Below are positions 11,956 through 45,005 of a DNA stretch of 64,000 bases, one piece after another (position 1 is the stretch's first letter; every line of letters starts with the position of its first letter). This DNA is from Candidatus Sulfopaludibacter sp. SbA3 (GTDB taxonomy: Bacteria > Acidobacteriota > Terriglobia > Bryobacterales > Bryobacteraceae), in assembly GCA_945890485.1 (NCBI GenBank), contig CAMDCN010000002.1:1-64000 (forward strand). Direction: 5' to 3'. A model generated the notes under the pieces. It was not told the origin of the DNA and did no database searches. It saw nothing but the letters and a program-made list of their open reading frames with translations. Both the position numbers and the translations under genes were made by a program.

Positions 11956-11959
11956 ATCG

Positions 11960-13210
11960 CTAGTGTAAGCGGATGCGCTTGTTCGGGTTGATAAAGACCC
12001 AACAGAGCGCCGCGCACACCAGCATGACTCCCGTGATGTTTAAAGGGGTATTCCAATCTCCGGTTTCGCGGATGAGCCTCGCCAGGACGATGGGGCTGAG
12101 GAAGCCGCCGACCTGGCCCGCGGTGTTCATCACGGCGCCGACGACACCGGCGTGGGGGCCGGCGATATCCATGCAAGTGCCCCAGGCCGCGCCGAGGCAG
12201 AAGGCTCCCCAGCCGGCGCCGAGGGCGAGATAGAGCGCAGCGGTGGTGGGGTCCGCGGCGGCGGCGCCCATCAGGGTGAACAGGCCCGCGAAGATGAAGC
12301 CGCTGCCGCCAGCGATCGTCCGGCCCAGGCGCAGACCGAAGCGTTTCGTGATCGAGTCCGTGGCGAGGCCGCCGGTGAGGTCCGCGACCATGCAGGCGAC
12401 CATGGGGGCGCCAGCGAACAGGCCGAGGTCGGTGGCCTTGAAGCCGCGGATGCGTTCGAGGTAGGTCGGCATCCAGGTGAGGTAGAAGTAGAACGCATAG
12501 CTCTGGATGAAGTACATGACGCAGAGCAGCATGACGTTGCGGTCCTTGATGATGTTGAGCCAGGGCACATCGCCATGGCCGGCCTGCTCTTCGCGGCCTT
12601 CGAGGATGAGGGCGAGTTCAGCGGCGTTGACCTCGGGGTGCTCGGAGGGTTCACTGCGGAACCAGCGGTACCAGAGGATGGCCCAAACGAACCCAACGGA
12701 GCCCAGCACGAGGAAGACGGTGCGCCATTCCATGAACGTCAGCATCCAGGCGATGAGCAAGGGCGAGTAGGCGCCGCCGCCGTGCGCGCCCATGAAAAAG
12801 ATACCCTGGGCCCGGCCGCGTTCGGTCTTCGGGAACCAGCGCGAGAAGGTTTTGGCGGAGTTGGGCCAGGCGCCGGCCTCGCCGATGCCAAATAAAAACC
12901 GAATGATAAGTAAACTTCCGAAGCTCCAGGCGGCGGCGGTGAGCATGGTGAAGGCGCTCCACCAGGTGACGATGCGCATCAAAACGCTGCGGGTTCCGAC
13001 CTTGTCGCCCCACCATCCGGTAGGGATTTCGAACAGGCCGTAGGCGAGCGTAAATGCGCTAAACACAAAGCCCATCTGCTGATCGGTGAGTCCCAGATCG
13101 CGGGAGACCTGCTTCGAGGTGATGGAGATCGCGATGCGGTCCATGTAGGTAATGGCGGCGAGCGCCACCCCGAAGGCGAGAACTTTGTAACGGGTCCGGC
13201 TGGGAGTCAT
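11960..13210 (-). CDS. MFS transporter, anion:cation symporter (ACS) type
   Basis: A 416-residue, 12-helix inner-membrane carrier. Features of the ACS subgroup (hexuronate, glucarate and similar organic acid uptake) include YMDRIAISI in helix 1, the loop motif GWWGDKVGTRSVL after helix 2, and FLFGIGEAGAWPNSAKTFSRWFP in helix 4-5. The second half keeps the helix 8-9 loop GGLATDSITKRFG. The substrate is probably a sugar acid or similar carboxylate. It lies 46 bp from the divergent gene at 13257, so the two may share control. Confidence 0.9.
   Translation of the reverse strand: MTPSRTRYKVLAFGVALAAITYMDRIAISITSKQVSRDLGLTDQQMGFVFSAFTLAYGLFEIPTGWWGDKVGTRSVLMRIVTWWSAFTMLTAAAWSFGSLLIIRFLFGIGEAGAWPNSAKTFSRWFPKTERGRAQGIFFMGAHGGGAYSPLLIAWMLTFMEWRTVFLVLGSVGFVWAILWYRWFRSEPSEHPEVNAAELALILEGREEQAGHGDVPWLNIIKDRNVMLLCVMYFIQSYAFYFYLTWMPTYLERIRGFKATDLGLFAGAPMVACMVADLTGGLATDSITKRFGLRLGRTIAGGSGFIFAGLFTLMGAAAADPTTAALYLALGAGWGAFCLGAAWGTCMDIAGPHAGVVGAVMNTAGQVGGFLSPIVLARLIRETGDWNTPLNITGVMLVCAALCWVFINPNKRIRLH
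11962..11967 (-). promoter_or_regulatory. Putative -10 element (TACACT), leaderless start of S10 peptidase gene
   Basis: TACACT is followed by 6 nt (AGCGAT) and the ATG at 11955. It overlaps the stop codon of the MFS gene, so it could be chance coding sequence, but the spacing matches three other starts in the window. Confidence 0.4.
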
Positions 13211-13256
13211 GGTCTAAAGGTTGTATCACGGGTACGCTAAAATCGCAGATAAGCGA

Positions 13257-14054
13257 ATGTTGAAAATTTCGAAACGGTCCGCCACCCTCCTGGCGATGTT
13301 CTGTCTGGGTGTCGCCGGACTTCAGGCTCAAGCGCAAACGCCGGCCCCTTCTTCCACCAATACCCAGGCTTCTGAAAAGCGCATCAATTACGTGCGCCGG
13401 CTCAGCCTTGGTGTGGGGCTCTCCGTGATTGCACTCGATACGATCAACAACGGCACGCTTTCCCGAAGCACCACCACACCCCCTCCAGCAACTACCGGCA
13501 ACTACGGCACAACGGCCATTCGGAAGCGCGTCGGCTACACCGGGATGTTGCAGATTCTCGTCACGAACCGCTTCGCGGTCACGGCGGGTATTGTGATGCG
13601 GCGGGTTGCCTTTACGCGCGACGGCGAGGTGCTCAGCGGCACGGATAACCCTACGACGGCGATTGACGATCGTCGCTATTCAACGATCTTCGAAGATACG
13701 CGGGCTCGCTTCTACGATATTCCGCTGACCGTTCGGTACTTCGGCAAGGATCGGACGCGGGCCGGCGGCCGGTGGTTTTTGGAGGGCGGTATCGTGCAGC
13801 GGAATGTTTCGAATCTGAAGTCGTCCGTCATCACCACTCTCGGCGACGATGAGCCGAACTGCTGTACGCCCACGACGGCGAAGAGTGGCGTGCGGGGCGT
13901 GATTGCTGGATTCGGCGGCCAGTTGATTGACCCGTTCGGCATCCGCGTGATGCCGAGTGTCCGGTTCACCCGCTGGATGGGAGAGACGTTTAACTCGTTC
14001 TCGACGGTCAGCAAGAAGAATCAGATTGAGGCGATGATTACCATCGGCTTCTAA
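13257..14054 (+). CDS. Outer-membrane beta-barrel-like protein
   Basis: The start at 13257 gives a signal peptide (residues 1-28, LLAMFCLGVAGLQAQAQ). The mature part alternates hydrophobic and polar residues in strand-length runs (LSLGVGLSVIAL, MLQILVTNRFAVTAGIVMRR, FYDIPLTVRYF) and ends in EAMITIGF with a C-terminal Phe, the usual signal for outer-membrane barrel insertion. The pattern resembles OmpA-type or PorT-like barrels, but I cannot name a family. A TAAAAT hexamer lies 13 nt before the ATG. Its TAA overlaps the next ATG by one base. Confidence 0.7.
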   Translation: MLKISKRSATLLAMFCLGVAGLQAQAQTPAPSSTNTQASEKRINYVRRLSLGVGLSVIALDTINNGTLSRSTTTPPPATTGNYGTTAIRKRVGYTGMLQILVTNRFAVTAGIVMRRVAFTRDGEVLSGTDNPTTAIDDRRYSTIFEDTRARFYDIPLTVRYFGKDRTRAGGRWFLEGGIVQRNVSNLKSSVITTLGDDEPNCCTPTTAKSGVRGVIAGFGGQLIDPFGIRVMPSVRFTRWMGETFNSFSTVSKKNQIEAMITIGF

Positions 14055-14440
14055 TGCGTCCTGTCCGCGCCGGCCTCGTGTACTTTCTCCTGGTATTCGG
14101 GGCCGGGTTTGTTTTGGGGGTTCTGCGGACGCTATTTATTGTTCCGAGGGTGGGCGCTCCGGCGGCGGAGTTGTTGGAGACGCCTCTGATGCTGGTGGCG
14201 ATTTGGCTGGCTGCCCGATGGCTCGTGCCTCGGCTTGCGCCAGGTGCGGCGCTACCGGCCGGGATGTTGGCGCTGGGCCTTACGTTGTTGGCGGAGATCG
14301 CCGTCGGCGTATTTCTGCGGCAGATGACGATTGCGGAGATCATTCTGCATCGGGAACTGGTTCCCGCCGTGGCTTACTACGGTTCGCTTCTTGTTTTCGG
14401 GTTCTTACCGGCGAAACTCGAGCACGACCGCCGAGCCTAA
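14054..14440 (+). CDS. Small membrane protein, 128 aa
   Basis: About four membrane helices (residues 5-27, 42-56, 66-88, 100-121) with short loops; no family recognised. The start codon overlaps the previous stop (TAATG), so the two genes are cotranslated and the protein may be a partner of the barrel-like protein, though nothing in the sequence proves this. The 3' end overlaps the convergent membrane-protein gene by 36 bp. Confidence 0.7.
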   Translation: MRPVRAGLVYFLLVFGAGFVLGVLRTLFIVPRVGAPAAELLETPLMLVAIWLAARWLVPRLAPGAALPAGMLALGLTLLAEIAVGVFLRQMTIAEIILHRELVPAVAYYGSLLVFGFLPAKLEHDRRA

Positions 14441-14962
14441 AGCCGCCAGCGAGAGAAGCATCCAGACCACTGTGGCAAGGCCGACGCGGCGGTCCTGCTT
14501 TGGCGGCAATCCTTCGACGCGCCCCATCTCGCGGACGCCGAGGATTCCCATCATCGAGGCGGTTTCCTCCGCCGCCTGCATTTCGGTTTCGAATTGGGCC
14601 GGATTGCGAAGCCAGCGGCCATCCCGATGGACGATGCCGGTTTCCCAGTGCGACACGTTGCCGGACTTGGGGCCTTGATAGTTCCATCGCCAGTAGCCGC
14701 CTGCAATTGCTTCTCGCGGGATCCATTCGCTGCCGACTCCGGTGGGTATCGGGCCCCGCCGTAGCTCGACCCCGTCCGAGCGGACCGTCATGCGGGTCCG
14801 GTTGCAGAGCGCAACGAGACCCAGATAGGTCAGGAGCGTGAAGGGACCGACGGCCGGACGCAACGTGGGGCCGCCGAACCAGAGCAAACATTGGGCGGCC
14901 ACGCCGAGAGCGAAGAGGACCAATCCGGTCCACAGCGGAATCCAGCGCCGGGTCCTGACCAT
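14405..14962 (-). CDS. Membrane protein, 185 aa, last gene of the amidase operon
   Basis: Two N-terminal helices (about 10-30 and 38-53), a soluble middle (RMTVRSDGVELRRGPIP...EWIPREAIAGGYWRW) and one C-terminal helix (about 160-180). The middle part looks like a bacterial PH-like domain (DUF304/DUF3093 kind), but I am not sure. It starts 3 bp after the amidohydrolase stop, so it belongs to that transcript; a role in the pathway is not evident. Confidence 0.7.
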   Translation of the reverse strand: MVRTRRWIPLWTGLVLFALGVAAQCLLWFGGPTLRPAVGPFTLLTYLGLVALCNRTRMTVRSDGVELRRGPIPTGVGSEWIPREAIAGGYWRWNYQGPKSGNVSHWETGIVHRDGRWLRNPAQFETEMQAAEETASMMGILGVREMGRVEGLPPKQDRRVGLATVVWMLLSLAALGSAVVLEFRR

Positions 14963-14965
14963 CGG

Positions 14966-15868
14966 CTAGGCCCAATGGGGGAAGAAGGCTTTCCAGTTCT
15001 CGTACAGGATCATGTCCTGCACCTCATCCGGAATCTTTGGCAAGCCGGTTCCGGCCACCACCTGATTGACGTTGCGAAGCCCGGCGACGATGTTCGCCAT
15101 AGTGCCGGAAGGGAAGTCCGAGCCCGGCAGAATCTTGTGCTCGACACCGTACTCCATCGCGGTCACCATCGCCTGCCAGTAGCGCCATGGGCGATAGTGG
15201 ACCGCGCTGATGTCGGCGTACATATTGGGGCATTTGCGGATGAGCACGATGAGATCGGTCTCCCACGGATGGCCGAGATGAGCGACGATCATCTTCAGGT
15301 CGGGGAAGTCCATGGCCAAGTCTTCGAGCTGCAGCGGCAGGCCCCACTTGAGTTTGGCGGCGGAGGGGAAGGTGGTGCCCTGGTGCCACATGATGGGGAG
15401 GCCGTGGTGCTGCACGCGCTTGAAGAATGGCCAGTGTTGACGATCCTGCGGGTCGAAGTGCTGGTAGACGGGGCCTAGCTTCAGGCCTTTGAGCTTTAGC
15501 GTGTTCACGCAGTAGTCGAGATGCTCGATGCAGTCGGGACGGGTGGGGTCGACGCTGGCCCAGCCTTCCATTTTCTCGGGATGTTTGGCTACGTAGTCGG
15601 CGATGATCTCGTTCGGAATATCCAGGCCGCAGGCTTTGGCTTGCAGGCCAAAGACGACGACATGCGCCATGTCCTCGGAGGCTTTCCAGTGGCTCTCGGG
15701 CGTCGAATCATAGACGTGCTTATCGAGGTTCGCCGAGTAGGCCAGACCGCCGCTGCGCTTGAGCTTCACAAGCTTTGAGGCCAGGGCCTCCTCGGCATAC
15801 TGCTCGCTGATATGGTCCGGATACCACATCAAGTGCGTGTGGCAGTCGATTATCTTTCGTTCGCTCAT
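14966..15868 (-). CDS. Amidohydrolase-2 family TIM-barrel hydrolase
   Basis: A 300-residue metal-dependent hydrolase or decarboxylase. The metal ligands are IDCHTHLMW (HxH, residues 10 and 12), His in IMWHQGTTFP, His in IVAHLGHPWE and Asp in LPGSDFPSG. The frame is open to 16327, but GGAGG (15876-15880) 7 nt before the ATG at 15868 fixes the start, which overlaps the previous stop by 4 nt (ATGA). Family members open lactones or decarboxylate aromatic acids. Here it follows an enolase-superfamily enzyme and an amidase, suggesting the last visible step of one catabolic route. Confidence 0.88.
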   Translation of the reverse strand: MSERKIIDCHTHLMWYPDHISEQYAEEALASKLVKLKRSGGLAYSANLDKHVYDSTPESHWKASEDMAHVVVFGLQAKACGLDIPNEIIADYVAKHPEKMEGWASVDPTRPDCIEHLDYCVNTLKLKGLKLGPVYQHFDPQDRQHWPFFKRVQHHGLPIMWHQGTTFPSAAKLKWGLPLQLEDLAMDFPDLKMIVAHLGHPWETDLIVLIRKCPNMYADISAVHYRPWRYWQAMVTAMEYGVEHKILPGSDFPSGTMANIVAGLRNVNQVVAGTGLPKIPDEVQDMILYENWKAFFPHWA

Positions 15869-16986
15869 TCCTTCACCTCCATCGCTTGTACCGCGTCCCA
15901 ATCCAGTTCGACGCCCAGTCCCGCGCCCTCTGGCGGCGTCAGCCAACCGTCCGCAATCATACCGGGCCCGGTGATGATGTCGCGGGCGTAGCGGAGCGGC
16001 CCGAAGGTTTCGATGGGATAAGGCAGATCCGGCAAGGCCGCGGCCAAGTGGGCGCACGCCGCGGTGGCGATCCCCATTTCGGCCTGGCTGCCGAGAATGC
16101 AGGGCACGCCAACGGCCGTCGCCAGGGCAAAGATTTCGGCGGCGGCGCGGAGGCCGCCGGCCTCGCTGACGTAGACGTTCCAAATGTCGGCGGCTTCGCC
16201 TTGCGCGAGTTCGTAGGCGTCTCGCAGGGTTTGGCAGCTTTCGTCGGCCATCACGGGCAGGCCGGTTTGGAGCCGGAGCGCGCGCATGCCTTCGAGATTG
16301 CGGCGGCCCAGGGGCTGTTCGAACCAAGCCACCGGCGCGGCATCGGCCAGCGTTCGCATTGCGCGGACGGCTTCGGGGACGGTGCGCCAGGCCATGTTTG
16401 CGTCCAGACGTAGCGGGACGTCGACGGCGCGGGCGACGGCTTCGACGGCCGCGAGGTCGGCGGACAGCTCTCGGCCCACTTTTAGCTTGATCGCCTGGAA
16501 GCCCGCGGCGCGGCCGGCCGTAGCGTCGGCGGCCATCTCTTCGGGGGACTTCTGATAGATGCCCCAGGCGAGGGCGGCCTTCTCGCGCCGCTTGCCGCCC
16601 AGCAGCGCCCAGGCAGGTACGCCGAAGTGTCGGCCGGTGGCGTCGAGCAAGGCCATTTCGAAGGCGGCGCGGAGGTAAGGCGCGCTGAGTTCGCCGCCGA
16701 GGACGCGGTCAATTTCGGCGAGAACGGTGGGGGCCGCCAGGGCATCGAGGCCGATGATGGCGGGGGCGATCAGCTTTCTCGCGGCATGGCAGAGCGAATG
16801 GCCGATGCGGGGGAATGTGATGGATATCTCGCCGAGGCCCTCGACGCCGTCTTCGGTCAACAGGCGCACGATGCCGAACTCGGAGGCGGTCACCGGGTCG
16901 GCTATGTTCAGGCCGGACCGCACCGCTTCCTTGCGGGGGGCGCGGATGGCGAAGACCTCGACTTGCCGGATGCGCGACCCGGTCAC
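15865..16986 (-). CDS. MR/MLE enolase-superfamily enzyme
   Basis: A 373-residue racemase/dehydratase/lactonizing-type enzyme. The general base motif is IKLKVG (KxK, residues 167-169), metal ligands are Asp195 (LRLDAN), Glu223 (WFEQP) and Glu249 (MADES), and GSQAEMGIATAACAHLA is the typical barrel end. At the sixth strand, where MLE-subgroup members have a second catalytic Lys (NIK..K.GG), this protein has NVYVSEAGG, so that Lys appears replaced. That suggests a different reaction from the standard epimerases. The GTG start overlaps the acetamidase stop (GTGA). Confidence 0.88.
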   Translation of the reverse strand: MTGSRIRQVEVFAIRAPRKEAVRSGLNIADPVTASEFGIVRLLTEDGVEGLGEISITFPRIGHSLCHAARKLIAPAIIGLDALAAPTVLAEIDRVLGGELSAPYLRAAFEMALLDATGRHFGVPAWALLGGKRREKAALAWGIYQKSPEEMAADATAGRAAGFQAIKLKVGRELSADLAAVEAVARAVDVPLRLDANMAWRTVPEAVRAMRTLADAAPVAWFEQPLGRRNLEGMRALRLQTGLPVMADESCQTLRDAYELAQGEAADIWNVYVSEAGGLRAAAEIFALATAVGVPCILGSQAEMGIATAACAHLAAALPDLPYPIETFGPLRYARDIITGPGMIADGWLTPPEGAGLGVELDWDAVQAMEVKE

Positions 16987-17861
16987 AGATACCTCTTGGC
17001 GACTTTTGCCGCTACCGCTCCGGACTGGTAGTAGCCCACCGAGATCTGGCCGGTATGCGTGAGGAGATCGTAAGCTTTCCAGCGGTCCCATCCGTATTCC
17101 TGCTCCATCCAGAGGATGAGCCAAGCGTAGGCTTGGGCGATGCCGCGTTCGAGGGGCGTGGCGGAAGAGACGCAGACGATCTCGTCGGCCGACTCGATGC
17201 GGGGGCCGGGAATGGTCCACCCTTTCTTCAGCTCCACGGTGATTTCGGTTTCGGCCGGCATCTCCAGGCCGGACGCCGATAGCTCGCCGTGGCCCATGGC
17301 GGCGTGGGCATCGCCGAGGTAGAGTAGCGCGCCGGGGACATACACGGGAAGGTACAGCGTCGCGCCTTCGGCAACCTCCAGGATGTCCATATTGCCGCCG
17401 TGCGGGCCGGCGGGGTTCGTGGTGGGCACGCCCCAATCGGGTGCTGTGCCGATGCAGCCGAGCATGGGCCGGTAGGGGATTTTCGCGTGGGCGCTCCAGT
17501 GGATGACGCCGTCAGAGATTTCGCAGACATGGGTGCCAGGCGGGCAATCGGTGCCCAGCCATTCGGCGAGCATCTTCGGATCTGACGTTCGTGTGAAGCA
17601 TTTGCCCATCGTGGGGCGGATGCTGTGAATTGTAACGGCCAACGTGTCGCCCTTTTCGGCGCCGTTCACATAGATGGGCCCGGTGGTGGGGTTCGAGTAC
17701 GGCATGGTGGCTTTGTTTCGCACATCAGCCTCCGTGCGGAGCTGGCCGGAGAAGGCATCCTGGCTCTCGACGCGGAGCCGGGCGCCGGGTTCGACGCGGA
17801 TTCGCGGTTCGTCGTGGCGATTGAACTCATAGCAAAGCCGGCCTAAGGGTAGGTGTTCCAT
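16983..17861 (-). CDS. Acetamidase/formamidase family amidohydrolase
   Basis: A 292-residue member of the FmdA/AmdA family, which hydrolyses short amides to acid plus ammonia. Conserved pieces are FSGQLRTE, ATMPYSNPTTGPIYVNGAEKGD, AGPHGGNMDILEVAEG and YLGDAHAAMGHGELSASGLE, with the metal-binding His and Asp residues in GPHGGNMD and GDAHAAMGHGE. It is the first gene of a four-gene operon with the MR/MLE enzyme and amidohydrolase, so its true substrate may be a larger amide. Its start is preceded by TATCCT and 9 nt with no Shine-Dalgarno. Confidence 0.9.
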   Translation of the reverse strand: MEHLPLGRLCYEFNRHDEPRIRVEPGARLRVESQDAFSGQLRTEADVRNKATMPYSNPTTGPIYVNGAEKGDTLAVTIHSIRPTMGKCFTRTSDPKMLAEWLGTDCPPGTHVCEISDGVIHWSAHAKIPYRPMLGCIGTAPDWGVPTTNPAGPHGGNMDILEVAEGATLYLPVYVPGALLYLGDAHAAMGHGELSASGLEMPAETEITVELKKGWTIPGPRIESADEIVCVSSATPLERGIAQAYAWLILWMEQEYGWDRWKAYDLLTHTGQISVGYYQSGAVAAKVAKRYL

Positions 17862-17870
17862 GTTTCATAC

Positions 17871-17880
17871 AGGATAGAAT
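17871..17880. promoter_or_regulatory. Overlapping divergent -10 elements in a 28-bp gap
   Basis: Only 28 bp separate the acetamidase ATG (17861, minus) from the esterase ATG (17890, plus). Plus strand: TAGAAT at 17875-17880, 9 nt before its ATG. Minus strand: TATCCT at 17876-17871, also 9 nt before its ATG. No ribosome binding site fits on either side. The arrangement suggests leaderless or nearly leaderless messages from two back-to-back promoters. Confidence 0.5.
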
Positions 17881-17889
17881 CCATTCACG

Positions 17890-19781: not shown

Positions 19782-19788
19782 TACACTA
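19782..19788. promoter_or_regulatory. Palindromic shared -10 (TACACTA) between divergent genes
   Basis: The start codons at 19775 (minus) and 19797 (plus) are only 21 bp apart. TACACT (19782-19787) lies 9 nt before the plus ATG, and its other strand gives TAGTGT (19788-19783) 7 nt before the minus ATG. The two -10 elements overlap by 5 bp, so one TACACTA may serve both directions with leaderless products. Confidence 0.5.
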
Positions 19789-20663: not shown

Positions 20664-22294
20664 TACTGGAGCACCTGCCCGTCTTTTTCGAGGCGTCCGC
20701 GCAATTCGGCGTACGGCACGTCCTGCACCGCGACACCCTTTTCGATCGCCATCACCGCCGCCGTCGCCGCCGATTGGCCCAGAATCATGAACACGGGCTC
20801 CATGCGGATGGAGCCATAGGCGATGTGCGAACTCGATAGGCACACCGGCACCAGCAGATTATCAACTTGCCCCTTCTTCGGCACGAGCGAGCCGTAGGCG
20901 ATCTGGTAAGGGCCGTTGGTGCTGACGCCGATGTCACCTTCGTTCTGCACGTAGCCCTCGGGCGTGATGTAGCGCTGGATGTTGTGCGAGTCGATGCCGT
21001 AGGAGCCCATGCCGACGGACTCCGGCGTCGGGCGCTTCTTGGTCAGTTCGTTTTCCGTCATCACGTAGCTACCGGTCATCCGCCGGGCTTCGCGGACGTA
21101 CATCTGGTGGGGCCAGTTGCCGTTGTCTTTGAACTCGTCCTTGGATAGACCCCATTGGCTCATGGCCGCTCGGACATCGGCCGGCACGCGCGAATCGTTC
21201 GCTACGAAGTAGAGCCAACCCTGCTGGTAGCGCACGTGCTCATCGAAGATCTCCTTGCGCCGTGCGTAGGTGGCTTCGGGGTAGTCCCAGTTACGCCCGA
21301 TGTTGTCCGTGCTGAACGGGCCATGGTTGTTCGTGTCGGTCTTGGCGTTCGGGATGGCGTCGTATTTGTCGAACGTCTCCGTCCAACCGGCCTCGTAGAC
21401 CCGCGCGAGCAGTTCATACTCTTTGGGGTCGTAGCCGGCAGGCTTGGCGAAGGGTACTCGGTTTTTCTCCACCTGGGTGAGGCACATGCGAAAGCAGTAG
21501 GCTTGCACTTTCTTGTCGGCCGCGCCGTATTCGCCGGGTGCCTCCGTGCTGATGCGCGGCAGCACGCCGCTTTGGGGATCGCCCGGCACAACGTAAGGTG
21601 AGATCTTCGACTTCAGTACCCCGAAGTGATGCCGGTGATGGAGCACGCCGGTCTGGACGCCCGCCCACTTCTCTCCGTACTGCTGCATGGACTCGCGGCC
21701 GACGTGGTAACTGACGCCTGCCGCCGCCATCAGGTCGCCTTCGTAGGTCGAATCGAGGAACATTTTCGCAGAGTAGGTTTTGCCGTCGAGCATCGAGATG
21801 GAGACGATGCGGCCGCCCTCTTTTTTGACGCCCTTCTCACGGTCGAGCCAGGAGTCGCGGAAGACGGGGATCTTCATCTCCTTCACCCATTGCTCGTAGA
21901 CGCGTTCGGCTACATGGGGTTCGAAGATCCACATCGTCCGGGCTTCCTGATCGAGCGCGACAGTCCCCTGGCCTTTATTGCCGAATTCGGACTGCTTCTG
22001 CCACTTCCAGGCCGCCGGCTTGGCGTAGTGCTGCCAGACGCGATGATAGAACTCACGCGAAAGGCCACCAATGACGGCCTTGTTGCCGGAGTCCGTCCAG
22101 CCGAGTCCGCCCGCGGTGAGGCCGCCCAGGTGCTTCTCCGGGCAAACCATGGCGACGGACTTACCCATCTTCTTCGTCTGCACGGCGGCGGTGACCGCAC
22201 CCGAGGTGCATCCATAGATGACAACGTCGTAGGTGGCTGGCGCCGCAGTCCCGGCCATGGTGGCGAGAACGAAGAGAAGGAGAGACCGAAACAT
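20645..22294 (-). CDS. FAD-dependent oxidoreductase, exported
   Basis: A 549-residue protein of the FAD_oxidored group often seen in soil Acidobacteria and Planctomycetes. A signal peptide (1-18) is followed by the dinucleotide site TYDVVIYGCTSGAVTAAV and the flavin-contacting HLGGLTAGGLGWTD. The mid-region FLDSTYEGDLMAAAGVSYHVGRES and the C-terminal MEPVFMILGQSAATAAVMA are typical. A sugar or polyol substrate is likely but not shown. The start follows TACAGT by 6 nt (22301-22306), with CTGACC 16 bp further upstream. Confidence 0.88.
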   Translation of the reverse strand: MFRSLLLFVLATMAGTAAPATYDVVIYGCTSGAVTAAVQTKKMGKSVAMVCPEKHLGGLTAGGLGWTDSGNKAVIGGLSREFYHRVWQHYAKPAAWKWQKQSEFGNKGQGTVALDQEARTMWIFEPHVAERVYEQWVKEMKIPVFRDSWLDREKGVKKEGGRIVSISMLDGKTYSAKMFLDSTYEGDLMAAAGVSYHVGRESMQQYGEKWAGVQTGVLHHRHHFGVLKSKISPYVVPGDPQSGVLPRISTEAPGEYGAADKKVQAYCFRMCLTQVEKNRVPFAKPAGYDPKEYELLARVYEAGWTETFDKYDAIPNAKTDTNNHGPFSTDNIGRNWDYPEATYARRKEIFDEHVRYQQGWLYFVANDSRVPADVRAAMSQWGLSKDEFKDNGNWPHQMYVREARRMTGSYVMTENELTKKRPTPESVGMGSYGIDSHNIQRYITPEGYVQNEGDIGVSTNGPYQIAYGSLVPKKGQVDNLLVPVCLSSSHIAYGSIRMEPVFMILGQSAATAAVMAIEKGVAVQDVPYAELRGRLEKDGQVLQYQAPAK

Positions 22295-22300: not shown

Positions 22301-22328
22301 ACTGTACTTGCTGACGGTATTTGGTCAG
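22301..22328 (-). promoter_or_regulatory. Putative promoter of FAD oxidoreductase gene
   Basis: CTGACC (22328-22323), a 16-bp spacer, and TACAGT (22306-22301) precede the ATG at 22294 by 6 nt. The -35 element overlaps the stop codon of the upstream DUF2383 gene. A start of transcription near the ATG would make the message leaderless. Confidence 0.5.
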
Positions 22329-28202: not shown

Positions 28203-28227
28203 ATCTTACGTGGTCCAGCGCGGACCA
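28203..28227 (-). promoter_or_regulatory. Putative -10 plus adjacent operator-like palindrome
   Basis: On the minus strand TAAGAT (28208-28203) is 6 nt from the nitrilase ATG. At 28211-28227 TGGTCC and GGACCA form a perfect inverted repeat with a 5-nt centre, in the space between -10 and -35 where a repressor could block polymerase. Confidence 0.45.
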
Positions 28228-37429: not shown

Positions 37430-37432
37430 GGC

Positions 37433-39292
37433 TCACCTCTGTGGCAGTGTTGCCAATAGGGCCATCGTCGACCACGCTCCGCCCGCCGCCGAGATCCACT
37501 GGTGGTTGAAGTACGGATGGCCCGCATCCCGCAGCGGCTGCACGGGATGAGAACGGCTCGTCACGTACCAGGAGCCGTCCTTGCGCTGCGTTCGCAGCAG
37601 ATAGTCTACGCCCCGGCGGTAGGCTGGATCCGTCGCGGGAAGCCCGGCCAAGTGAAGAGCGTAGAGACTCTGTCCGGTGGCATAAGCGTCCGGCGCCAAT
37701 TGCGCTGTTTGGCCCCAGCCCCCGTCTTCCCGTTGCAGCGCCAGCAGGGCATTTACCGCGTCTCCTTTCCTCGCACCGCCTCCCCAGACGAGTCCCATCA
37801 GCCGCAACGCGTGTTCTTCGGTATCTCGCGGCGTCTGCTTCGCCAGCCATCGGGTCGCCCGCCCCACGCGCTCGCGAAACTCGGCTGCCCGGCCGGGCAG
37901 GGGGTACAACTGCAGTGCCCGTAGCGCGGTGGCCGTGAAGGTGATGTCGGCATACTCCTGCGGTGGACGGTAGTCCCATTCGTGAAATCTGCCGCTTGGC
38001 TCCTGGCGCGTTGTAACGTGGTGCACCATATCGTCGGTTACCGCGTTTGTATCTCGGTTCTCCGCGGCCAGGCCAATCAGCGGATACGGGTTGATGTCGG
38101 CCACTCCGGTGCCGAGCCAGAGGCTCGGACTGTGTGGCCGCATCGACTGAATCGAGTGCTCGTACTCCTGTCTTGCCGAGGCGTCGTCCACGGCAAGCCC
38201 ACGCGCCCGGGCCATGCTCACTACCATCGCGGGCAAGGAGTTGTTGTGGCAGGAGATGCACTTTCCAAACGAATGCACCGGGGCGCCAATCCGCTGTAGC
38301 AGCGGGAGACTTCGCGCGACTGCGTCGCCCACCTGATTCGCGACCAACGGCGGCGGCACCCGCAAGGCCGTTCTCGTTTCCGGGCCCCCGGCCTTTCTCA
38401 GCAGGTTTGCGACTGGCGTTTCGCCAAACCGCAACGCAAGCGAGAGCGCCGTATCCCCCGTCTCGTTCTTTGGGCTGGGGTTGGCCCCTTTCGCCAGCAA
38501 GTACTCCACTACAGCGGCCGACCCTGGCTCGTAGGACAGCGCCGCCCGCATCAGCGGCGTGTACCCTCGCTGGTCCGCTGCCTGCACGTCCGCTCCCTTC
38601 GCCACCAACAGGCGAACCATTTCCAGATCCCCAAAGGCCGCCGCATCCTGCAACGCGGAGCGGCGCGATCCGGTGGCCCCGTTGGGGTCGGCGCCGCCTT
38701 CGAGAGCCAGTCGCAGACACTCCCGGCAGTGCCCGGCCGCCGCCGAACGGGCAAGGCGCGGAGTGGTGGAAACCTTCGCTCCATGCGTCAGCAGCAACTG
38801 CATCAGCGTCAGGTCCCCGTTCAACGCCGCCCGGCCCAACGGCGTCTGGCCGCCAGCCACCCGATTCGGATCGGCCCCCTTCGCGAGCAGTAGCTTCACC
38901 ACGGCGGAACTGCCGGGCCGGTCGGCGGCGATGTGCAGCGGTGTCAGTCCGGATTTCGTCGCCGCATCAGGGGTGGCGCCGCGGCTTAGCAGCAGCCGTG
39001 TTTTGGCTTCGTCGAACGCCGCCATGTGCAGTGCGGTGATGCCCTCCTTCGTTGCCGCGTCGACGCGCGCCCCGGCGTTCAGCAGTAATTTCATTGTGGG
39101 AACCCCCGCGGTGATGACCGCATACTGCAAGGGCGGGAGCCCCTCGCTGTTCCGGGCCTCAGGATCGACTCCCGATCGGAGAGCGGCCTTGACCGCTTGC
39201 GGATTGCCGCCCCGGATGGCGGCAAAGATCTCGTCGGGCTCCATTGCCGAGCAATTCGTCACGAGTCCAACCCACAGCGCCACTGATCGCAT
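37433..39292 (-). CDS. Ankyrin-repeat protein with heme c motif and toroid (squalene-cyclase-like) domain
   Basis: A 619-residue exported or periplasmic protein with three parts. Residues about 18-300 are eight or so ankyrin repeats (TPLHIAADRPGSSAVVKLLLAKGADPN). A c-type heme motif CISCH lies at 345-349 in FGKCISCHNNSLP. Residues about 400-619 form an alpha/alpha toroid of the squalene-cyclase or prenyltransferase type, with QW-like repeats LLALQREDGGWGQ and YLLRTQRKDGSWYV. The function is unknown. TACGCT lies 6 nt before its ATG. The order of domains is unlike any family I can name. Confidence 0.85.
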   Translation of the reverse strand: MRSVALWVGLVTNCSAMEPDEIFAAIRGGNPQAVKAALRSGVDPEARNSEGLPPLQYAVITAGVPTMKLLLNAGARVDAATKEGITALHMAAFDEAKTRLLLSRGATPDAATKSGLTPLHIAADRPGSSAVVKLLLAKGADPNRVAGGQTPLGRAALNGDLTLMQLLLTHGAKVSTTPRLARSAAAGHCRECLRLALEGGADPNGATGSRRSALQDAAAFGDLEMVRLLVAKGADVQAADQRGYTPLMRAALSYEPGSAAVVEYLLAKGANPSPKNETGDTALSLALRFGETPVANLLRKAGGPETRTALRVPPPLVANQVGDAVARSLPLLQRIGAPVHSFGKCISCHNNSLPAMVVSMARARGLAVDDASARQEYEHSIQSMRPHSPSLWLGTGVADINPYPLIGLAAENRDTNAVTDDMVHHVTTRQEPSGRFHEWDYRPPQEYADITFTATALRALQLYPLPGRAAEFRERVGRATRWLAKQTPRDTEEHALRLMGLVWGGGARKGDAVNALLALQREDGGWGQTAQLAPDAYATGQSLYALHLAGLPATDPAYRRGVDYLLRTQRKDGSWYVTSRSHPVQPLRDAGHPYFNHQWISAAGGAWSTMALLATLPQR

Positions 39293-39298
39293 GGAGAC

Positions 39299-39304
39299 AG
39301 CGTA
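39299..39304 (-). promoter_or_regulatory. Putative -10 element (TACGCT), leaderless start
   Basis: TACGCT is followed by GTCTCC (6 nt) and the ATG of the ankyrin/heme gene at 39292. No Shine-Dalgarno is present. The spacing equals that at 22294 and 28196. Confidence 0.45.
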
Positions 39305-39337
39305 GCTGATTCTTTATGACAAACTAAGGGCAGAATT

Positions 39338-40678
39338 ATGCAGGTAGTCACCATTGGCAACCGGACCGATCAGCCGCCGCCAGAAGCGACCAAGGAAGGG
39401 AACTACTTCGTCTCGAACTACCCCCCTTTCTCCTTCTGGCGCCCGGAGAATGTCCAGGAGGCCGTTGCTGCTTTGCAGCGTCCGCCCGCCCCGGATACGC
39501 CGCTCGGCCTGTACGTCCACATCCCGTTCTGCCGCAAACGCTGCCACTTCTGCTATTTCAAGGTCTACACCGGCATGGACGCCGCCGCCATCGAAACCTA
39601 TCTCGATGCCGTCCGCCAGGAACTCGCCCTGTACGCCGCCCAACCCATCATCGGCGGCCGCAAGCCCCGGTTTATTTACTTTGGCGGCGGCACTCCGTCC
39701 TACCTGTCGACCCGCCAGCTCGGCGGTCTGGTCGATGAGATGAAGCGTCTCTTCCCGTGGGATGGGATTGAAGAGGTCACCTTCGAATGCGAGCCCGGAA
39801 CGCTGACGGAAGGCAAGCTCGAAATCCTGCGCGAGATCGGCGTCACCCGCCTCTCGCTGGGTATCGAGAATTTTGACGATGAGATCCTCCGCGTCAACGG
39901 CCGCGCTCACGTGTCGAAGGAGATCGACCGCGCCTACTCATTCGCCCGATCCGTAGGCTTCCCCCAGATCAACATCGACCTGATCGCCGGCATGGTTGGG
40001 GAAACCGAACAGAACTGGCAGGAGACCGTCCGCCGCGCTATCGAACTCGCTCCGGACAGCGTGACGATTTATCAGATGGAAGTCCCGTACAACACCACGA
40101 TTTCGAAAGAGATGCGGGTCCACGGCGAGAAGGTCGCCCCAGTCGCCCCCTGGAACGTGAAGCGGGCCTGGACTCAGTACGCCTTCGATCAGTTCGCCGC
40201 CGCCGGCTACACCGTCACGAGCGCCTACACCGCCGTCCGCAATCCTGCCCAGGCGTCGTTCGTTTATCGCAACCTCCTCTGGGCTGGCGCCGACATGCTC
40301 GGCTTGGGCGTCGCTTCGTTCTCGCACGCCAACGGCACGCACTACCAGAACGAGCACGACTACGACACCTACATCCGCCGTTGCAACAGCGGAGAGCTTC
40401 CTCTGTTCCGCGCCCTGACGCCCACGCCGCTCGAACGCTTCGTCCGCGAGTTCATCCTGCAGTTGAAGCTCGGCCAAGTCACCAACCAGTATTTCGTTGA
40501 CAAGTATGCCGTTAACCCCGCGCATCACTTTCCGGCCGAACTCGGGGCGCTGCAGGCCGAAGGGTTCCTCCACTTCGACGACGCCGGCGTGCGCCTGACG
40601 CCGGAAGGCCTTCTGCAAGTCGACCGTCTGCTCCATCGCTTTTTCCTGCCCGAACACCGTAACGCCCGCTATAGCTAA
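39338..40678 (+). CDS. HemN-like radical SAM enzyme
   Basis: A 446-residue radical SAM protein of the coproporphyrinogen-dehydrogenase-like family. The iron-sulfur motif is CRKRCHFC (Cys65, 69, 72) inside YVHIPFCRKRCHFCYFK. FIYFGGGTPSYLSTRQL and LGIENFDDEILRVNGRAH follow, then NIDLIAGMVGETEQNWQ. The C-terminal HemN-like domain is present. HemN relatives include methyltransferases and cyclopropanases of natural-product pathways as well as heme enzymes. It leads a plus-strand run with a halogenase-like flavoprotein 29 bp on, which argues for specialised metabolism rather than heme synthesis. Confidence 0.88.
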   Translation: MQVVTIGNRTDQPPPEATKEGNYFVSNYPPFSFWRPENVQEAVAALQRPPAPDTPLGLYVHIPFCRKRCHFCYFKVYTGMDAAAIETYLDAVRQELALYAAQPIIGGRKPRFIYFGGGTPSYLSTRQLGGLVDEMKRLFPWDGIEEVTFECEPGTLTEGKLEILREIGVTRLSLGIENFDDEILRVNGRAHVSKEIDRAYSFARSVGFPQINIDLIAGMVGETEQNWQETVRRAIELAPDSVTIYQMEVPYNTTISKEMRVHGEKVAPVAPWNVKRAWTQYAFDQFAAAGYTVTSAYTAVRNPAQASFVYRNLLWAGADMLGLGVASFSHANGTHYQNEHDYDTYIRRCNSGELPLFRALTPTPLERFVREFILQLKLGQVTNQYFVDKYAVNPAHHFPAELGALQAEGFLHFDDAGVRLTPEGLLQVDRLLHRFFLPEHRNARYS

Positions 40679-40707
40679 TGCGCCGACCGTAAAAAGGAGT
40701 TCTCGCT

Positions 40708-41985
40708 TTGAGCCAAGTACAGACCTGCGAATTCGACTCGATCATCCTCGGGGCCGGCCCCGCGGGCGCTACCGCCGCCGCCGTCCTTGCCGAAAAGGGC
40801 CGCAACGTCGTAGTCCTCGAACGCGATAAGTTCCCGCGTTATCACATCGGCGAGTCGCTGATGCCATACTGCTACTTTCCGCTGGAACGCCTTGGCCTGG
40901 TGGAAACGATCACGAACTCCCACTTCCCCAAGAAATACAGCGTGCAGTTCGTGAACACCAACGGCAAGGTTTCGCAGCCGTTCTACTTCTTTCAGCACAA
41001 CGACCATCCTTCGTCGACAACGTGGCAGGTGGTGCGGAGCGAGTTCGACAACATGATCCTCGACAAGGCCCGGCAAAACGGCGCCACGGTTCACGAGGAG
41101 ACCACGGCCCGCGAACTGATCTGGGAGAACGGCGCCGTGGTGGGTGTCCGCGCCACGACGGCTTCGGGCGAAGCGCGGGAATACCGCGCCCCGATCACCA
41201 TCGACGCCACCGGCCGCGACGCCCTAGCCGTTACACGCAACGGTTGGAAGGTGCGCGATCCCTACTTGAACAAGATTGCCATCTGGACCTACTACCGCAA
41301 CGCCGCGCGCGACCCCGGCCTGGATGAGGGCGCCACCACCGTTGCGTATCTCCCCGAACGCGGATGGTTCTGGTACATTCCTCTGCCGGACAACATCGTC
41401 AGCGTTGGCATCGTGGCCGAGAAGGATTACCTCTATCGCGACACCCGTGAAATCGGCGAAATCTTTCAGCGCGAGATTGCCGCGAATTCCTGGATTCAGG
41501 AACACCTGGCCCCCGGCGAACAGTTTGGCCGCTACTGGGTCACTGGCGAATACTCCTATCGTTCGCAGCATTGCGCGGCCGATGGGCTCATCCTCGCTGG
41601 CGACGCCTTCGCCTTCTTGGATCCGGTCTTCTCTTCCGGCGTCTTCCTCGCCCTCCGCTCGGGCGAACTCGCGGCGGAAGCCGCCGATGCCGCCCTTACC
41701 GCGCAGGACTTCACGGCGGCGCAGTTCGCGCCTTACGGCGAGCACCTCTGCTCCGGCATTGAAGCCATGCGGAAGCTGGTTTACGCTTTCTACGATCAGG
41801 AGTTCAGCTTCCGCGAATTCCTAATGGCGAACCCCACGCTCAAGGGTGATTTGACAGACTGCCTGATCGGTAATCTCTTCCGCGATTTCGATCCCCTCTT
41901 CGGCGCGCTTGCCGATTTCGCCAAGCTGCCGGCTGCGCTTCCCCATGGCGGTCCCGTCACCGCGCCGCAGCTCGTGGAGCGCTAG
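40708..41985 (+). CDS. Flavin-dependent halogenase-like monooxygenase
   Basis: A 425-residue FAD enzyme. Motifs: GAGPAG (15-20), PRYHIGES (43-50), a Lys pair KK at 75-76 where phenolic halogenases keep the catalytic Lys, WFWYIP (220-225) fitting the WxWxIP halogenase motif, and LAGDAFAFLDPVFSSGV. Together these favour a halogenase of the CmlS/phenolic type over a geranylgeranyl reductase, though the latter family is related. A TTG start at 40708 is chosen because AGGAG (40695-40699) lies 8 nt upstream. The downstream thioesterase and ligase suggest a carrier- or CoA-bound acyl substrate. Confidence 0.72.
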   Translation: MSQVQTCEFDSIILGAGPAGATAAAVLAEKGRNVVVLERDKFPRYHIGESLMPYCYFPLERLGLVETITNSHFPKKYSVQFVNTNGKVSQPFYFFQHNDHPSSTTWQVVRSEFDNMILDKARQNGATVHEETTARELIWENGAVVGVRATTASGEAREYRAPITIDATGRDALAVTRNGWKVRDPYLNKIAIWTYYRNAARDPGLDEGATTVAYLPERGWFWYIPLPDNIVSVGIVAEKDYLYRDTREIGEIFQREIAANSWIQEHLAPGEQFGRYWVTGEYSYRSQHCAADGLILAGDAFAFLDPVFSSGVFLALRSGELAAEAADAALTAQDFTAAQFAPYGEHLCSGIEAMRKLVYAFYDQEFSFREFLMANPTLKGDLTDCLIGNLFRDFDPLFGALADFAKLPAALPHGGPVTAPQLVER

Positions 41986-41990
41986 GTCGC

Positions 41991-42431
41991 GTGGCTCATA
42001 GTTTTAAAGTTCAACGCCGCGTCGAGTTCTCGGAAACCGACATGGCCGGCATCGTCCACTACAGCAATTTCTTTCGCTATATGGAGTCGGCCGAGCACGC
42101 CTTCTTCCGCTCCCTTGGCTTCTCCATTGCCTCCGGCGAACCTGGCTCCCTGGGCTGGCCCCGCGTCCACGCCGATTGCGATTTCCGCCGTCCGCTTCGC
42201 TTTGAAGATACGGTGGAGATCGAACTCCTTGTCCGCGAGAAGCGAACCCGGAGCCTGGTCTACACGTTCATCTTTCGCAAGCTCAATGCGGATCCACCGG
42301 TCGAGGTCGCCCGGGGCTCACTCGCCGTGGCTTGCGTGCGGAAGGATCCCGTCACCCGCGAGATGACCAGCGTGGCGATCCCTGACGAGATCGCGTCGCA
42401 GATCGAGGCCGCGCCCGAGGGCGCTGCATGA
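41991..42431 (+). CDS. YbgC/FadM-type acyl-CoA thioesterase (4HBT hotdog fold)
   Basis: A 146-residue single hotdog domain. The signature RVEFSETDMAGIVHYSNFFRYMESAEHAF has the catalytic Asp in ETDMAG, as in 4-hydroxybenzoyl-CoA thioesterase. It would release an acyl group from CoA or a carrier. It lies 5 bp after the halogenase-like gene, and its stop overlaps the next ATG (ATGA), so it works in the same pathway. The start is a GTG. Confidence 0.9.
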   Translation: MAHSFKVQRRVEFSETDMAGIVHYSNFFRYMESAEHAFFRSLGFSIASGEPGSLGWPRVHADCDFRRPLRFEDTVEIELLVREKRTRSLVYTFIFRKLNADPPVEVARGSLAVACVRKDPVTREMTSVAIPDEIASQIEAAPEGAA

Positions 42432-43687
42432 CCTTCGTGGAACGCGGCGCCCTGCGGGCGTATCAACTCGAGCGACTTCGCGAACTGCGTGACGCTCTGG
42501 TTCCCGCCAACGCGTTTTACTCTTCCCGCTTGCCCGGCGAAATCGCTTCGCTGGAGGCATACTCCGCCGCTGTCCCGTTCACGACCAAATCGGAACTCGT
42601 CGCCGATCAGGTGGCCCATCCGCCGTTCGGTTCCAACCACACCTGCCCCCGCTCCGCCTACACGCGCTTTTGCCAAACGTCCGGCACGACAGGCCGTCCG
42701 CTGCGCTGGCTCGATACGACGGAAAGCTGGGACTGGATGCTGGATTGCTGGGCGAGGGTGTTCACTTCAGCCGGAGTTGGCGCCGGCGATCGCGTCTTCT
42801 TCGCCTTCTCCTTCGGTCCATTCCTTGGCTTTTGGACCGCCTTCGATTCCGCGGTGCGCCTTGGTTGCCTCGCGATTCCTGGCGGCGGCATGACCAGCAC
42901 AGCCCGTTTGCGGACGCTGGTCGATAGCCAGGCGGAGGTCCTCTGCTGCACGCCCACTTACGCCATTCGCCTTGCGGAGGTCGCCCGCGAGGAAGGCGTC
43001 GATCTGGCGGCTGGCGCCGTGCGGAAGGTTATTGTCGCCGGCGAGCCTGGCGGCAGCGTATCGGGCACCCGGGCTCTTCTCGAATCGCTATGGCCCGGCG
43101 CGCGCATCATGGACCATCACGGCATGACGGAGACCGGGCCCGTGAGTTACGAGTGTCCGGTCAACCCTCGGGTCCTCCACATTATGGAGGATCAGTTCTT
43201 CGCCGAGATCGTCGATCCCTCGTCCGGCCAACCTCTTTTGGATGGCGCACCCGGCGAGCTTGTTCTCACAAACCTGGGGCGCATCGCCGCGCCGGTGCTT
43301 CGCTATCGCACCGGCGATCTGGTCCAACCCGCTCCGGCCGGCCGCTGCTCCTGCGGTAGCCTCGACCTGGCTCTGCCCGGCGGCATCCTCGCCCGCTGCG
43401 ACGATATGGTGGTCATCCGCGGCGTGAATATTTACCCGAGCGCCATCGAAGACGTGGTTCGCGCTTGCGGCGGCATCGCCGAGTACCGCGTGGAGATCGC
43501 CGCCGTACGCTCCATGGACGAACTGCGCTTGCAGATCGAACCCGCCCCGGACGCTCCGGCCGGTCTGGTCCACCGTCTCGAAACGGCGCTTCGGGACGCT
43601 TTCGGCCTGCGCATCCCGATTGAGACCGCCACGTCCGGATCGCTGCCTCGCTTCGAAATGAAGTCCAAGCGCTGGGTTCGCGTGTAG
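42428..43687 (+). CDS. Phenylacetate-CoA ligase-family adenylating enzyme
   Basis: A 419-residue AMP-forming enzyme. The P-loop is FCQTSGTTGRPL (about 79-90), the adenine motif HHGMTETGPVSYEC (about 234-247), the hinge YRTGDLVQPA and the C-terminal domain MVVIRGVNIYPSAIEDVV are all intact, so it is probably active, unlike the variant at 30273. The likely substrate is an aryl or small carboxylic acid. Translationally coupled to the thioesterase; the antiporter follows after 3 bp. Confidence 0.9.
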   Translation: MTFVERGALRAYQLERLRELRDALVPANAFYSSRLPGEIASLEAYSAAVPFTTKSELVADQVAHPPFGSNHTCPRSAYTRFCQTSGTTGRPLRWLDTTESWDWMLDCWARVFTSAGVGAGDRVFFAFSFGPFLGFWTAFDSAVRLGCLAIPGGGMTSTARLRTLVDSQAEVLCCTPTYAIRLAEVAREEGVDLAAGAVRKVIVAGEPGGSVSGTRALLESLWPGARIMDHHGMTETGPVSYECPVNPRVLHIMEDQFFAEIVDPSSGQPLLDGAPGELVLTNLGRIAAPVLRYRTGDLVQPAPAGRCSCGSLDLALPGGILARCDDMVVIRGVNIYPSAIEDVVRACGGIAEYRVEIAAVRSMDELRLQIEPAPDAPAGLVHRLETALRDAFGLRIPIETATSGSLPRFEMKSKRWVRV

Positions 43688-43690
43688 CCA

Positions 43691-44989
43691 ATGACCGCCT
43701 CGCCCGTGAGCGCTCACGTCGAAAACGTCCTACTGATCGTCCTGATTCAGCTAGCCATCATAATCGCCGCTGCCCGGCTTTCCGGCCTGCTCTTCCGCCG
43801 TATGGGGCAGCCGCAGGTGTGCGGGGAAATTGCGGCCGGGCTCCTGCTGGGCCCGTCTGTTTTCGGCCGTTTCTTTCCTGAGGTCTCCGCCCGTGTCTTC
43901 GACGCTTCCGTCAACCAGGTCTTCAGCATCATGAGCCAACTTGGCCTGATCCTGTTGATGTTCCTGATTGGGCTGGAATTCGAGTTCGGCCACCTTCGGG
44001 ACAATCGCCGCACGGCCATTTTCGTCTCGCTCGCCGGGATCCTGCTGCCGTTCTCGCTCGGCATGGGTCTCGGCTACTACCTCCATGGCAGCCTCGGCCT
44101 CACTGGTAATTGGGTTTATTTTGCTCTCTTCATGGCCACGGCAATGTCGATTACAGCCATCCCCATCCTCGGCCGGATCATGATCGAGCTCAAAATGAAC
44201 CGCTCGATGATCGGTTCCATTACGATCTCGAGCGCCGCCATCGACGACGCAGCCGGATGGATTCTGCTCGCGCTGGTGACGGCGATTTCGCAATCGAATT
44301 TCGAGCCCTGGCGATTCGCCCGCATGATCGCCGCCGTCCTTGCCTTTGGCCTGTTCATGGTCCTCGCCGTCCGCCCTTTGGCCGTCCGGTGGATCCGCCG
44401 CGCTCTCGATCGCAACGAAGGAACGCTCTCGCTGACCGCGCTCGCCGGCGTGCTCATCGCCATCATCCTCTCCGCGATCAGCACCAACCTTATCGGCATC
44501 TTCTCTATCTTCGGCGCGTTCCTCTTTGGGGCCGTCCTCCACGATCAAGCCGAATTCGTTGCGGCGGTCCGCGCCAAGATCAGCGACTTCGTCACGGTTT
44601 TCTTTTTGCCGATCTTTTTCACTTACACTGGCCTGCGAACCGACATCGGCACCATGACGGGTCTCGACCTGTGGTTGATGTGCGGCCTCGTTCTATTTGC
44701 CGCCATGGCCGGCAAACTTGGTGGCTGCTCGCTTGCCGCCCGGTGGAGCGGCCTCTCCTGGCGCGATTCGGCCAAAATCGGCGTCATGATGAATACCCGG
44801 GCCCTGATGGAACTGATCGTCGTGAACATCGGCTTCGACCTCGGCGTCATTCCCCGCAGCGTCTTTTTCATGCTCGTGTTCATGGCAATTGTCACGACCT
44901 ACATCACCGTGCCGCTGTTGCGACTGCTCGGCCCGGAATCACCGGACAGCCCCCTGGACGCTTCGCTATCTCCCGCTCGCCCGGTGTGA
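43691..44989 (+). CDS. Cation:proton antiporter (CPA2/Kef type)
   Basis: A 432-residue membrane protein with about 12-13 helices of the Na_H_Exchanger family. Signature regions are GQPQVCGEIAAGLLLGPSVFGRF, a conserved acidic helix around SSAAIDDAAGWILLA (Asp-Asp) and SGLSWRDSAKIGVMMNTRALMELIVVNIGFDLGVI. It exchanges Na+ or K+ for H+. It lies 3 bp after the CoA ligase, so it shares the transcript, though whether it exports a product or is a passenger is unclear. Confidence 0.9.
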   Translation: MTASPVSAHVENVLLIVLIQLAIIIAAARLSGLLFRRMGQPQVCGEIAAGLLLGPSVFGRFFPEVSARVFDASVNQVFSIMSQLGLILLMFLIGLEFEFGHLRDNRRTAIFVSLAGILLPFSLGMGLGYYLHGSLGLTGNWVYFALFMATAMSITAIPILGRIMIELKMNRSMIGSITISSAAIDDAAGWILLALVTAISQSNFEPWRFARMIAAVLAFGLFMVLAVRPLAVRWIRRALDRNEGTLSLTALAGVLIAIILSAISTNLIGIFSIFGAFLFGAVLHDQAEFVAAVRAKISDFVTVFFLPIFFTYTGLRTDIGTMTGLDLWLMCGLVLFAAMAGKLGGCSLAARWSGLSWRDSAKIGVMMNTRALMELIVVNIGFDLGVIPRSVFFMLVFMAIVTTYITVPLLRLLGPESPDSPLDASLSPARPV

Positions 44990-44995
44990 TAGCAT
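44990..44995 (+). promoter_or_regulatory. Putative -10 element (TAGCAT)
   Basis: TAGCAT ends 10 nt before the ATG at 45006 and no Shine-Dalgarno is seen, giving at most a few nucleotides of leader. It overlaps the antiporter stop codon. Confidence 0.35.
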
Positions 44996-45005
44996 TCCCT
45001 CAAAA

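Follow-up and report, generated by a model that had tools for sequence, protein, structure and literature searches.

Predicted leaderless genes in Candidatus Sulfopaludibacter and stop codons that form part of the putative -10 box of the next gene

In Candidatus Sulfopaludibacter sp. SbA3, an acidobacterium, the hexamer TAnnnT is found 6–10 nucleotides (nt) before the start codon far more often than expected, and at certain short distances between same-strand genes the stop codon of the preceding gene is often itself a part of this box. The hexamers are very probably the -10 boxes of housekeeping-type promoters, and the messenger RNAs (mRNAs) made from them would be leaderless or nearly so. 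A first-pass annotation of the window, i.e., the stretch of 64,000 nt that forms the first 64 kb of contig 2 (CAMDCN010000002.1), had listed nine starts with such a box and without a good Shine-Dalgarno (SD) sequence. All nine boxes were confirmed at the distances given there: 11955, 22294, 28196 and 39292 (all minus strand) at N6, 19775 (minus) at N7, 17861 (minus), 17890 and 19797 (both plus) at N9, and 45006 (plus) at N10, where N6–N10 denote the nucleotides between box and start codon. None of the nine (0/9) has GGAG, AGGA or GAGG at -16 to -5, as determined by script for seven and by eye for 22294 and 39292. The same annotation contrasted these starts with five genes said to have clear SD sequences, which holds for 1752, 22774, 54315 and 54673 and fails for 59744, where the sequence is weak (judged by eye, and by script too for 1752, 54673 and 59744; 22774 and 54315 were not picked as starts by the gene caller).

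The genome comprises 7.13 Mb in 35 contigs and is 97% complete. The sequence analysed amounts to 2.064 Mb including the window (29% of the genome), and a box is an exact TAnnnT. Genes were called from dicodon score and start-codon type only, upstream sequence never being used, which gave sets of 676 genes in 864 kb, 1314 in 1.664 Mb and 1657 in 2.064 Mb. Over the 1657 starts the hexamer was counted 11 times at N4, 18 at N5, 103 at N6, 56 at N7, 56 at N8, 48 at N9, 22 at N10, 35 at N11 and 34 at N12, against a baseline of 14.9 per position at -45 to -23. An N6–N10 box stands before 283 of the 1657 starts compared with ~74 expected, an excess of 12.6% with the mode at N6. The sharp genome-wide peak at -12 to -16 that had been proposed as support for leaderless genes is thus present, and the earlier hand estimate of about 4% by chance agrees with the baseline (5 x 14.87/1657 = 4.5%); of 11554 internal in-frame ATGs, 187 (1.6%) have the box. 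The edge between N5 and N6 is steep (18 vs 103, p 6e-16). Judged by sigma70 spacing, we infer that this lower edge is a limit set by the promoter, as a box one base nearer would give a transcript beginning inside the ATG. Transcription would begin at the first base of the start codon or 1–4 nt upstream of it, and about 13% of genes would be of the leaderless type by the exact TAnnnT count.

Within the window, 9 of the 48 called genes have an N6–N10 box where ~2.2 are expected (binomial p 2.6e-4). These nine differ from the nine of the first-pass annotation in lacking 22294 and 39292 and in including 5927 and a false positive, 14054. The signal-blind caller picked eight of the nine listed starts at first and seven after retraining; it placed the 22294 start at 22258 both times and the 39292 start at 39244 the second time only.

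The genomic context of the boxes also points to promoters. Among the 1314 genes of the 1.664 Mb set, the box share peaks in divergent genes separated by less than 60 nt, between which a promoter has to be located (38/108 at gaps of 0–59 nt, 5.9 expected); it is 7/26 in overlapping divergent pairs and 54/288 at gaps of at least 60 nt. Same-strand genes have the box in 65/288 cases at 0–25 nt, 28/190 at 26–100 nt, 11/146 beyond 100 nt and 13/267 where they overlap. SD-like motifs precede 20 of the 283 box genes (7.1%) and 379 of the 1374 other genes (27.6%), the value in a control span being 8.8%, so that SD motifs in box genes are as rare as background. Tight same-strand genes behave alike, with an SD-like motif in 6 of 83 boxed genes and in 86 of 286 others. 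In composition, the boxes of 100 divergent and 66 tight same-strand genes have a G two bases before the box (-14) in 55% and 62%, respectively, and in both classes A is the commonest base at position four of the box and A or C at position five. No -35 consensus was detected upstream of these boxes, and 4397 intragenic TAnnnT hexamers do not have the A preferences of the box. By these features the box corresponds to a putative sigma70-type -10 element, TAnaMT with G at -14.

An alternative explanation is that the hexamers arise by chance, or as a side effect of AT-rich sequence around starts and of TAA or TAG stops lying shortly upstream. It draws on the fact that stops alone can produce the motif, since 86 of 473 control stops (those with a convergent neighbour or with the next start far away) begin a TAnnnT, and on the false match at 14054. 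The box share is highest, however, in divergent genes, where no stop on the same strand precedes the start, and neither the sharp N5/N6 edge nor the SD avoidance nor the conservation of position described below is accounted for. The register of the stops also speaks against it. Among the control stops, 18% begin a TAnnnT, 10 (2%) provide the T that closes one, and 1 forms TGATAnnnT. In the 2.06 Mb, when the stop lies at gap 9 from the next start (stop at -12) it begins the box in 16 of 24 junctions (Fisher p 6e-7), and at gap 10 in 8 of 16 (Fisher p 0.005); box-beginning stops are enriched at these two gaps only, corresponding to N6 and N7, and the other gaps (5–8 and 11–30 pooled, 47/244) equal the controls. 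At gap 4, where the T of the stop falls at -7, the stop ends the box in 13 of 35 (Fisher p 5e-11), compared with 14 of 284 at gaps 5–30 pooled. At gaps 12–16, TGATAnnnT occurs in 5 of 55 junctions vs 1 of the 473 control stops (Fisher p 6e-5). The registers mostly place the box at N6; the count of 18/21 at gap 1 is trivial because the T of the ATG completes the motif. Taken with this evidence, the chance explanation is considered highly improbable.

The junctions of the window in which the preceding stop lies inside the box or is directly attached to it are 11955 and 45006. At 11955, the box is present in all four relatives compared, at the same position in three and with a one-base shift in G006. 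The in-frame stop there, which lies at gap 5 in G006 and at gap 4 in G009, G010 and G012, is TAA in G012 and TAG in the other three; in all four it supplies the last T of the box. At 45006, the TGA occupies the place of the TGn of an extended -10 element. The TGATAGCAT is kept in both relatives compared (G009 and G010) with differing flanks; in G010 the gene before it terminates at a TAG located 24 nt upstream of the ATG, so that the TGA, though retained, is not its stop. A similar separation was observed at contig 2, 228454-232266, where a TAA at gap 4 ends the box in SbA3; a TAG immediately adjacent to the ATG (gap 0) is the stop in G009, and the box, TATACT, is retained. As judged from these alignments, the shifting apart of box and stop in relatives is more in keeping with a promoter than with a translation signal linked to the stop, because the TGA of TGATAGCAT is kept in G010 without being a stop and the box is kept as the stop moves. 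In tight same-strand rows the box would overlap the 3' end of the gene before, whose stop codon becomes part of the hexamer, and a gene that seems operon-distal probably also makes its own leaderless mRNA.

A second alternative accepts the boxes as real -10 elements and holds that starts vary, so that transcripts would begin with a short leader or without the first ATG and be translated otherwise, for example, at tight junctions, by re-initiation from the upstream gene. The N7–N10 boxes, 182 of the 285 N6–N10 matches, could indeed give leaders of 1–4 nt, and tight junctions permit translational coupling (PMC6728339, PMC12548453). Against this stand the N5/N6 edge, which lies exactly where the transcription start would cut into the ATG, and the occurrence of the same box before divergent genes, where coupling is impossible. 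This alternative is therefore regarded as very unlikely, and initiation on leaderless or nearly leaderless mRNAs remains the favoured reading.

Conservation was examined in 382 kb from four genomes of the same genus, in which 205 of 287 genes have ortholog-like matches with a median identity of 89%. The position of the N6–N10 box is kept in 45 of 57 ortholog comparisons, and in 49 of 57 within two bases. In controls, a TAnnnT at -50 to -23 keeps its position in 22 of 45 (p 0.0018) and one in the first 90 nt of genes in 22 of 67 (p 3e-7). Compared with G009, 33 boxed genes have an identity of 85–97% in the box and of 55–70% at 14 to 5 bases before it; unboxed genes (n=86) have 67–90% over -40 to -1 without such a dip and peak. 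Eight of the nine listed sites have the box in at least one relative, and 39292 has no ortholog to compare in the relatives. The leaderless reading offered by the first-pass annotation is in this way supported by position, -10-like features, positional conservation and SD exclusion, with the transcript starts as predictions.

Divergent pairs offer a further arrangement, in which two overlapping near-symmetric boxes could serve both genes from one spot. There are 264 divergent pairs, 77 with a gap of 0–59; both sides have a box in 14 of the 77 vs 11.7 if independent, which is no clear excess. In pairs with both boxes and a gap of 18–28 the boxes overlap in 8 of 8, two by five bases (TAnnnTA) and six by two (AnnnTAnnnT), an overlap partly forced by geometry. 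Both window pairs, 19775/19797 and 17861/17890, belong to this group. In the first, TACACTA holds TACACT (19782-19787, plus strand, N9 before ATG 19797) and TAGTGT (19783-19788, minus strand, N7 before ATG 19775). Of 11 same-genus loci, 9 have the N7 box of 19775, some of them with a protein identity as low as 68–70%, the exceptions being L115, where the match starts at residue 11, and L121; the plus-strand box of 19797 is present in 2 of 4 relatives. In the second pair, AGGATAGAAT combines TATCCT (17871-17876, minus strand, N9 before ATG 17861) with TAGAAT (17875-17880, plus strand, N9 before ATG 17890), the TA being common to both. The box position is kept in 3 of 4 relatives for the minus gene (not in G010, where the gene follows another) and in 3 of 3 for the plus gene. 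TATCCT also occurs in loci L042, L043, L048 and L099, some of which are the same contigs as in the ortholog comparison.

Several observations weigh against the interpretation as a whole. The minus gene of the second pair, FmdA (16983-17861), has neither box nor SD in loci L044-L047 and L051, where it starts two bases after another gene and the TAG or TAA before it closes an open frame of 286–861 codons; the box is retained in relatives with the divergent arrangement. For 22294 and 19797, two of the four relatives (G006 and G012) have no box at the position tested. The N9 box of 14054, rejected as a false positive within the end of the preceding gene, is kept in 0 of 2 relatives and shows that a gene end can yield a false box. 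At gaps 11–13 (N8–N10) there is no excess of box-beginning stops (8/39), for which N6 being the preferred distance is the sole explanation we can offer. The stop-codon pattern is post hoc: it was first noticed in 1.664 Mb, and in the 0.4 Mb added later the stop takes part in the box in 5 of 8 junctions at gap 9, 3 of 5 at gap 10 and 4 of 13 at gap 4; the TGATAnnnT figure is that of the full 2.06 Mb. In the same-genus relatives gap 4 gives 5 of 9, and gaps 9 and 10 give 1 of 2 and 0 of 2. The 57 ortholog comparisons are not independent, as they come from 35 genes with up to four relatives each. Finally, both signals, an SD-like tetramer and an exact TAnnnT box, are lacking in 995 of the 1657 genes.

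Other counts were tried and set aside. A gene-blind genome count of TAnnnT-N6-ATG gave 807 matches vs 683 for the reversed pattern, which is weakly raised, and in several relatives (e.g., G002, G003, G007, G008 and G016) the count was about level or lower; it was dropped as a test, and gene calls were therefore needed. The gene-blind count of TAnnnTAG-N4-ATG was sharp (24 vs 3–8 at other spacer lengths), yet its stop codons are inseparable from other boxes. An expectation-maximization run seeded with nGnTAnnnT kept the motif with its weight at -12 to -15 and was not used as evidence, because the seed contains the G and the class fractions are uninformative, a control region having split 49/51. 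The features of the window are collected in Table 1.

Table 1. Boxes and other features of the window, with coordinates in the 64,000-nt stretch
Feature	Positions	Strand	Remarks
TACACT box	5934..5939	-	N6 before GTG 5927 (gene 5412-5927); absent from the first-pass annotation; position kept in 3/3 relatives
TACACT box	11962..11967	-	N6 before ATG 11955; the TAG stop of upstream gene 11960-13210 begins with the last T of the box (11962)
AGGATAGAAT	17871..17880	both	overlapping boxes of divergent pair 17861/17890, 28 nt apart
TACACTA 7-mer	19782..19788	both	near-symmetric box common to divergent pair 19775/19797
TACAGT box	22301..22306	-	N6 before ATG 22294; same TACAGT N6 ATG shared with G009 and G010 and lacking in G006 and G012 (judged by eye)
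TAAGAT box	28203..28208	-	N6 before ATG 28196; position kept in the one relative compared, G009
TACGCT box	39299..39304	-	N6 before ATG 39292
TGATAGCAT	44987..44995	+	TGA stop of gene 43691-44989, then TAGCAT box, N10 before ATG 45006
tRNA-Ser (CGA)	4154-4243	-	

Some features of the genome were observed alongside. Same-strand gaps of 4, 6 and 9 nt occur 35, 32 and 24 times in the 2.06 Mb, and gaps of 3, 5, 7, 8 and 10 nt occur 18, 21, 13, 10 and 16 times; the excess at gap 6 has no explanation by the box. TAG is the commonest stop codon (642/1657, 39%) and reaches 267/520 (51%) in genes with a convergent neighbour. In G016, a genome of the same order from which 400 kb with 272 genes were analysed, TAG accounts for 109/272 (40%), second to TGA. 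The accessible text of PMC3549826 gives ~20% for TAG in bacteria and describes it as universally suboptimal. The TAG preference here is not due to promoter overlap, because it is strongest in convergent genes. A 16S gene was not found in the SbA3 assembly by a search that was positive in 9 of 14 control genomes.

The same caller was applied to other lineages. The N6 peak is 8 vs 1.2 in plasmid P1 of Deinococcus deserti (205 genes), whose tight junctions are too few for testing the stop codons, and 37 vs 3.5 in two Thermus plasmids (543 genes). It is weaker in G016, with 7 vs 1.65 in the 272 genes, where no stop-embedded box was found among few tight junctions. In the Thermus plasmids the stop begins the box in 4 of 12 junctions at gap 9 vs 16 of 217 control stops (p 0.013) and ends it in 2 of 9 at gap 4 vs 9 of 217 (p 0.064, not significant); T. 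brockianus contributed no match at either gap. A stop-codon geometry beyond this lineage is only hinted at by these counts.

Reports also exist on several related systems. Zheng et al. (2011, PMC3160421) have described TA-led leaderless genes with TANNNT ~12 bp before the start, including a high-GC form with weak middle positions, and their Table 2 lists leaderless genes in 3 of 3 genomes of Acidobacteria with a mean of 13.3% (9.7–19.4), to which the excess of 12.6% found here is close. Leaderless genes in Acidobacteria are already in print, and the analogy from actinobacteria drawn in the first-pass annotation is therefore unnecessary; what appears to be new is the stop-codon geometry, with its putative function. 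Tight same-strand junctions are box-rich here (65/288), in contrast to the statement that an SD is usually required for distal genes of operons. The terms "stop codon", "divergent" and "intergenic" are absent from the main text of Zheng et al. In Deinococcus-Thermus, an ORF-adjacent -10 region is reported to give expression through leaderless mRNA (PMC12340547), as proposed here; that system belongs to another phylum, and "stop codon" and "upstream gene" are not in the main text of the report. Warman et al. (2021, as described in PMC10268837) have reported bidirectional promoters in which near-symmetric -10 elements overlap on opposite strands, with starts 7–25 bp apart, most often 18. The divergent pairs have the same overlapping arrangement; here, both products would be coding and leaderless, with start codons 21 and 28 nt apart. 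In Mycobacterium tuberculosis, the start of the recX promoter inside recA was mapped to the A of the next ATG (PMC3062782). The likeness lies in the sequence, since the putative boxes of such junctions in SbA3 also fall in the terminal part or the stop of the gene before; a start at the ATG would be the second half of the likeness. recX is a single mapped case, and a stop codon as part of the box is not stated in the accessible text. Stop codons that overlap SD sequences (PMC2784483, accessible text) resemble the present case in that stop and spacing are adapted to a downstream initiation signal, the signal there being an SD in RNA and here a putative promoter element in DNA. In the leaderless-gene literature searched, which consisted mainly of titles and the beginnings of abstracts, with subscription papers outside it, no description was found of a stop codon that contributes to a -10 box, nor of the contrast with the SD requirement stated for distal operon genes. 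For acidobacteria, no start-site terms appeared among the matches listed in a search for start-site mapping.

Overall, we consider it reasonably likely that in compact genomes rich in leaderless genes the stop codon routinely contributes to the promoter of the gene that follows, that genes which look operon-distal have their own leaderless mRNA, and that the choice of stop and its spacing (9 or 4 nt) are selected by both RNA polymerase and ribosome. In such genomes TAA or TAG would serve as the first half of the box, the T of any stop as its last base, and TGA as the TGn of an extended -10 element. Should transcript 5' ends confirm this, operons predicted from short gene distances would be partly wrong in these genomes, and programs that call gene starts should also search the 3' end of the preceding gene for a -10 box. 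The rule that excludes leaderless mRNAs from operon-distal genes would be weakened, and the stop codon would gain a third task besides termination and overlap with the SD sequence.

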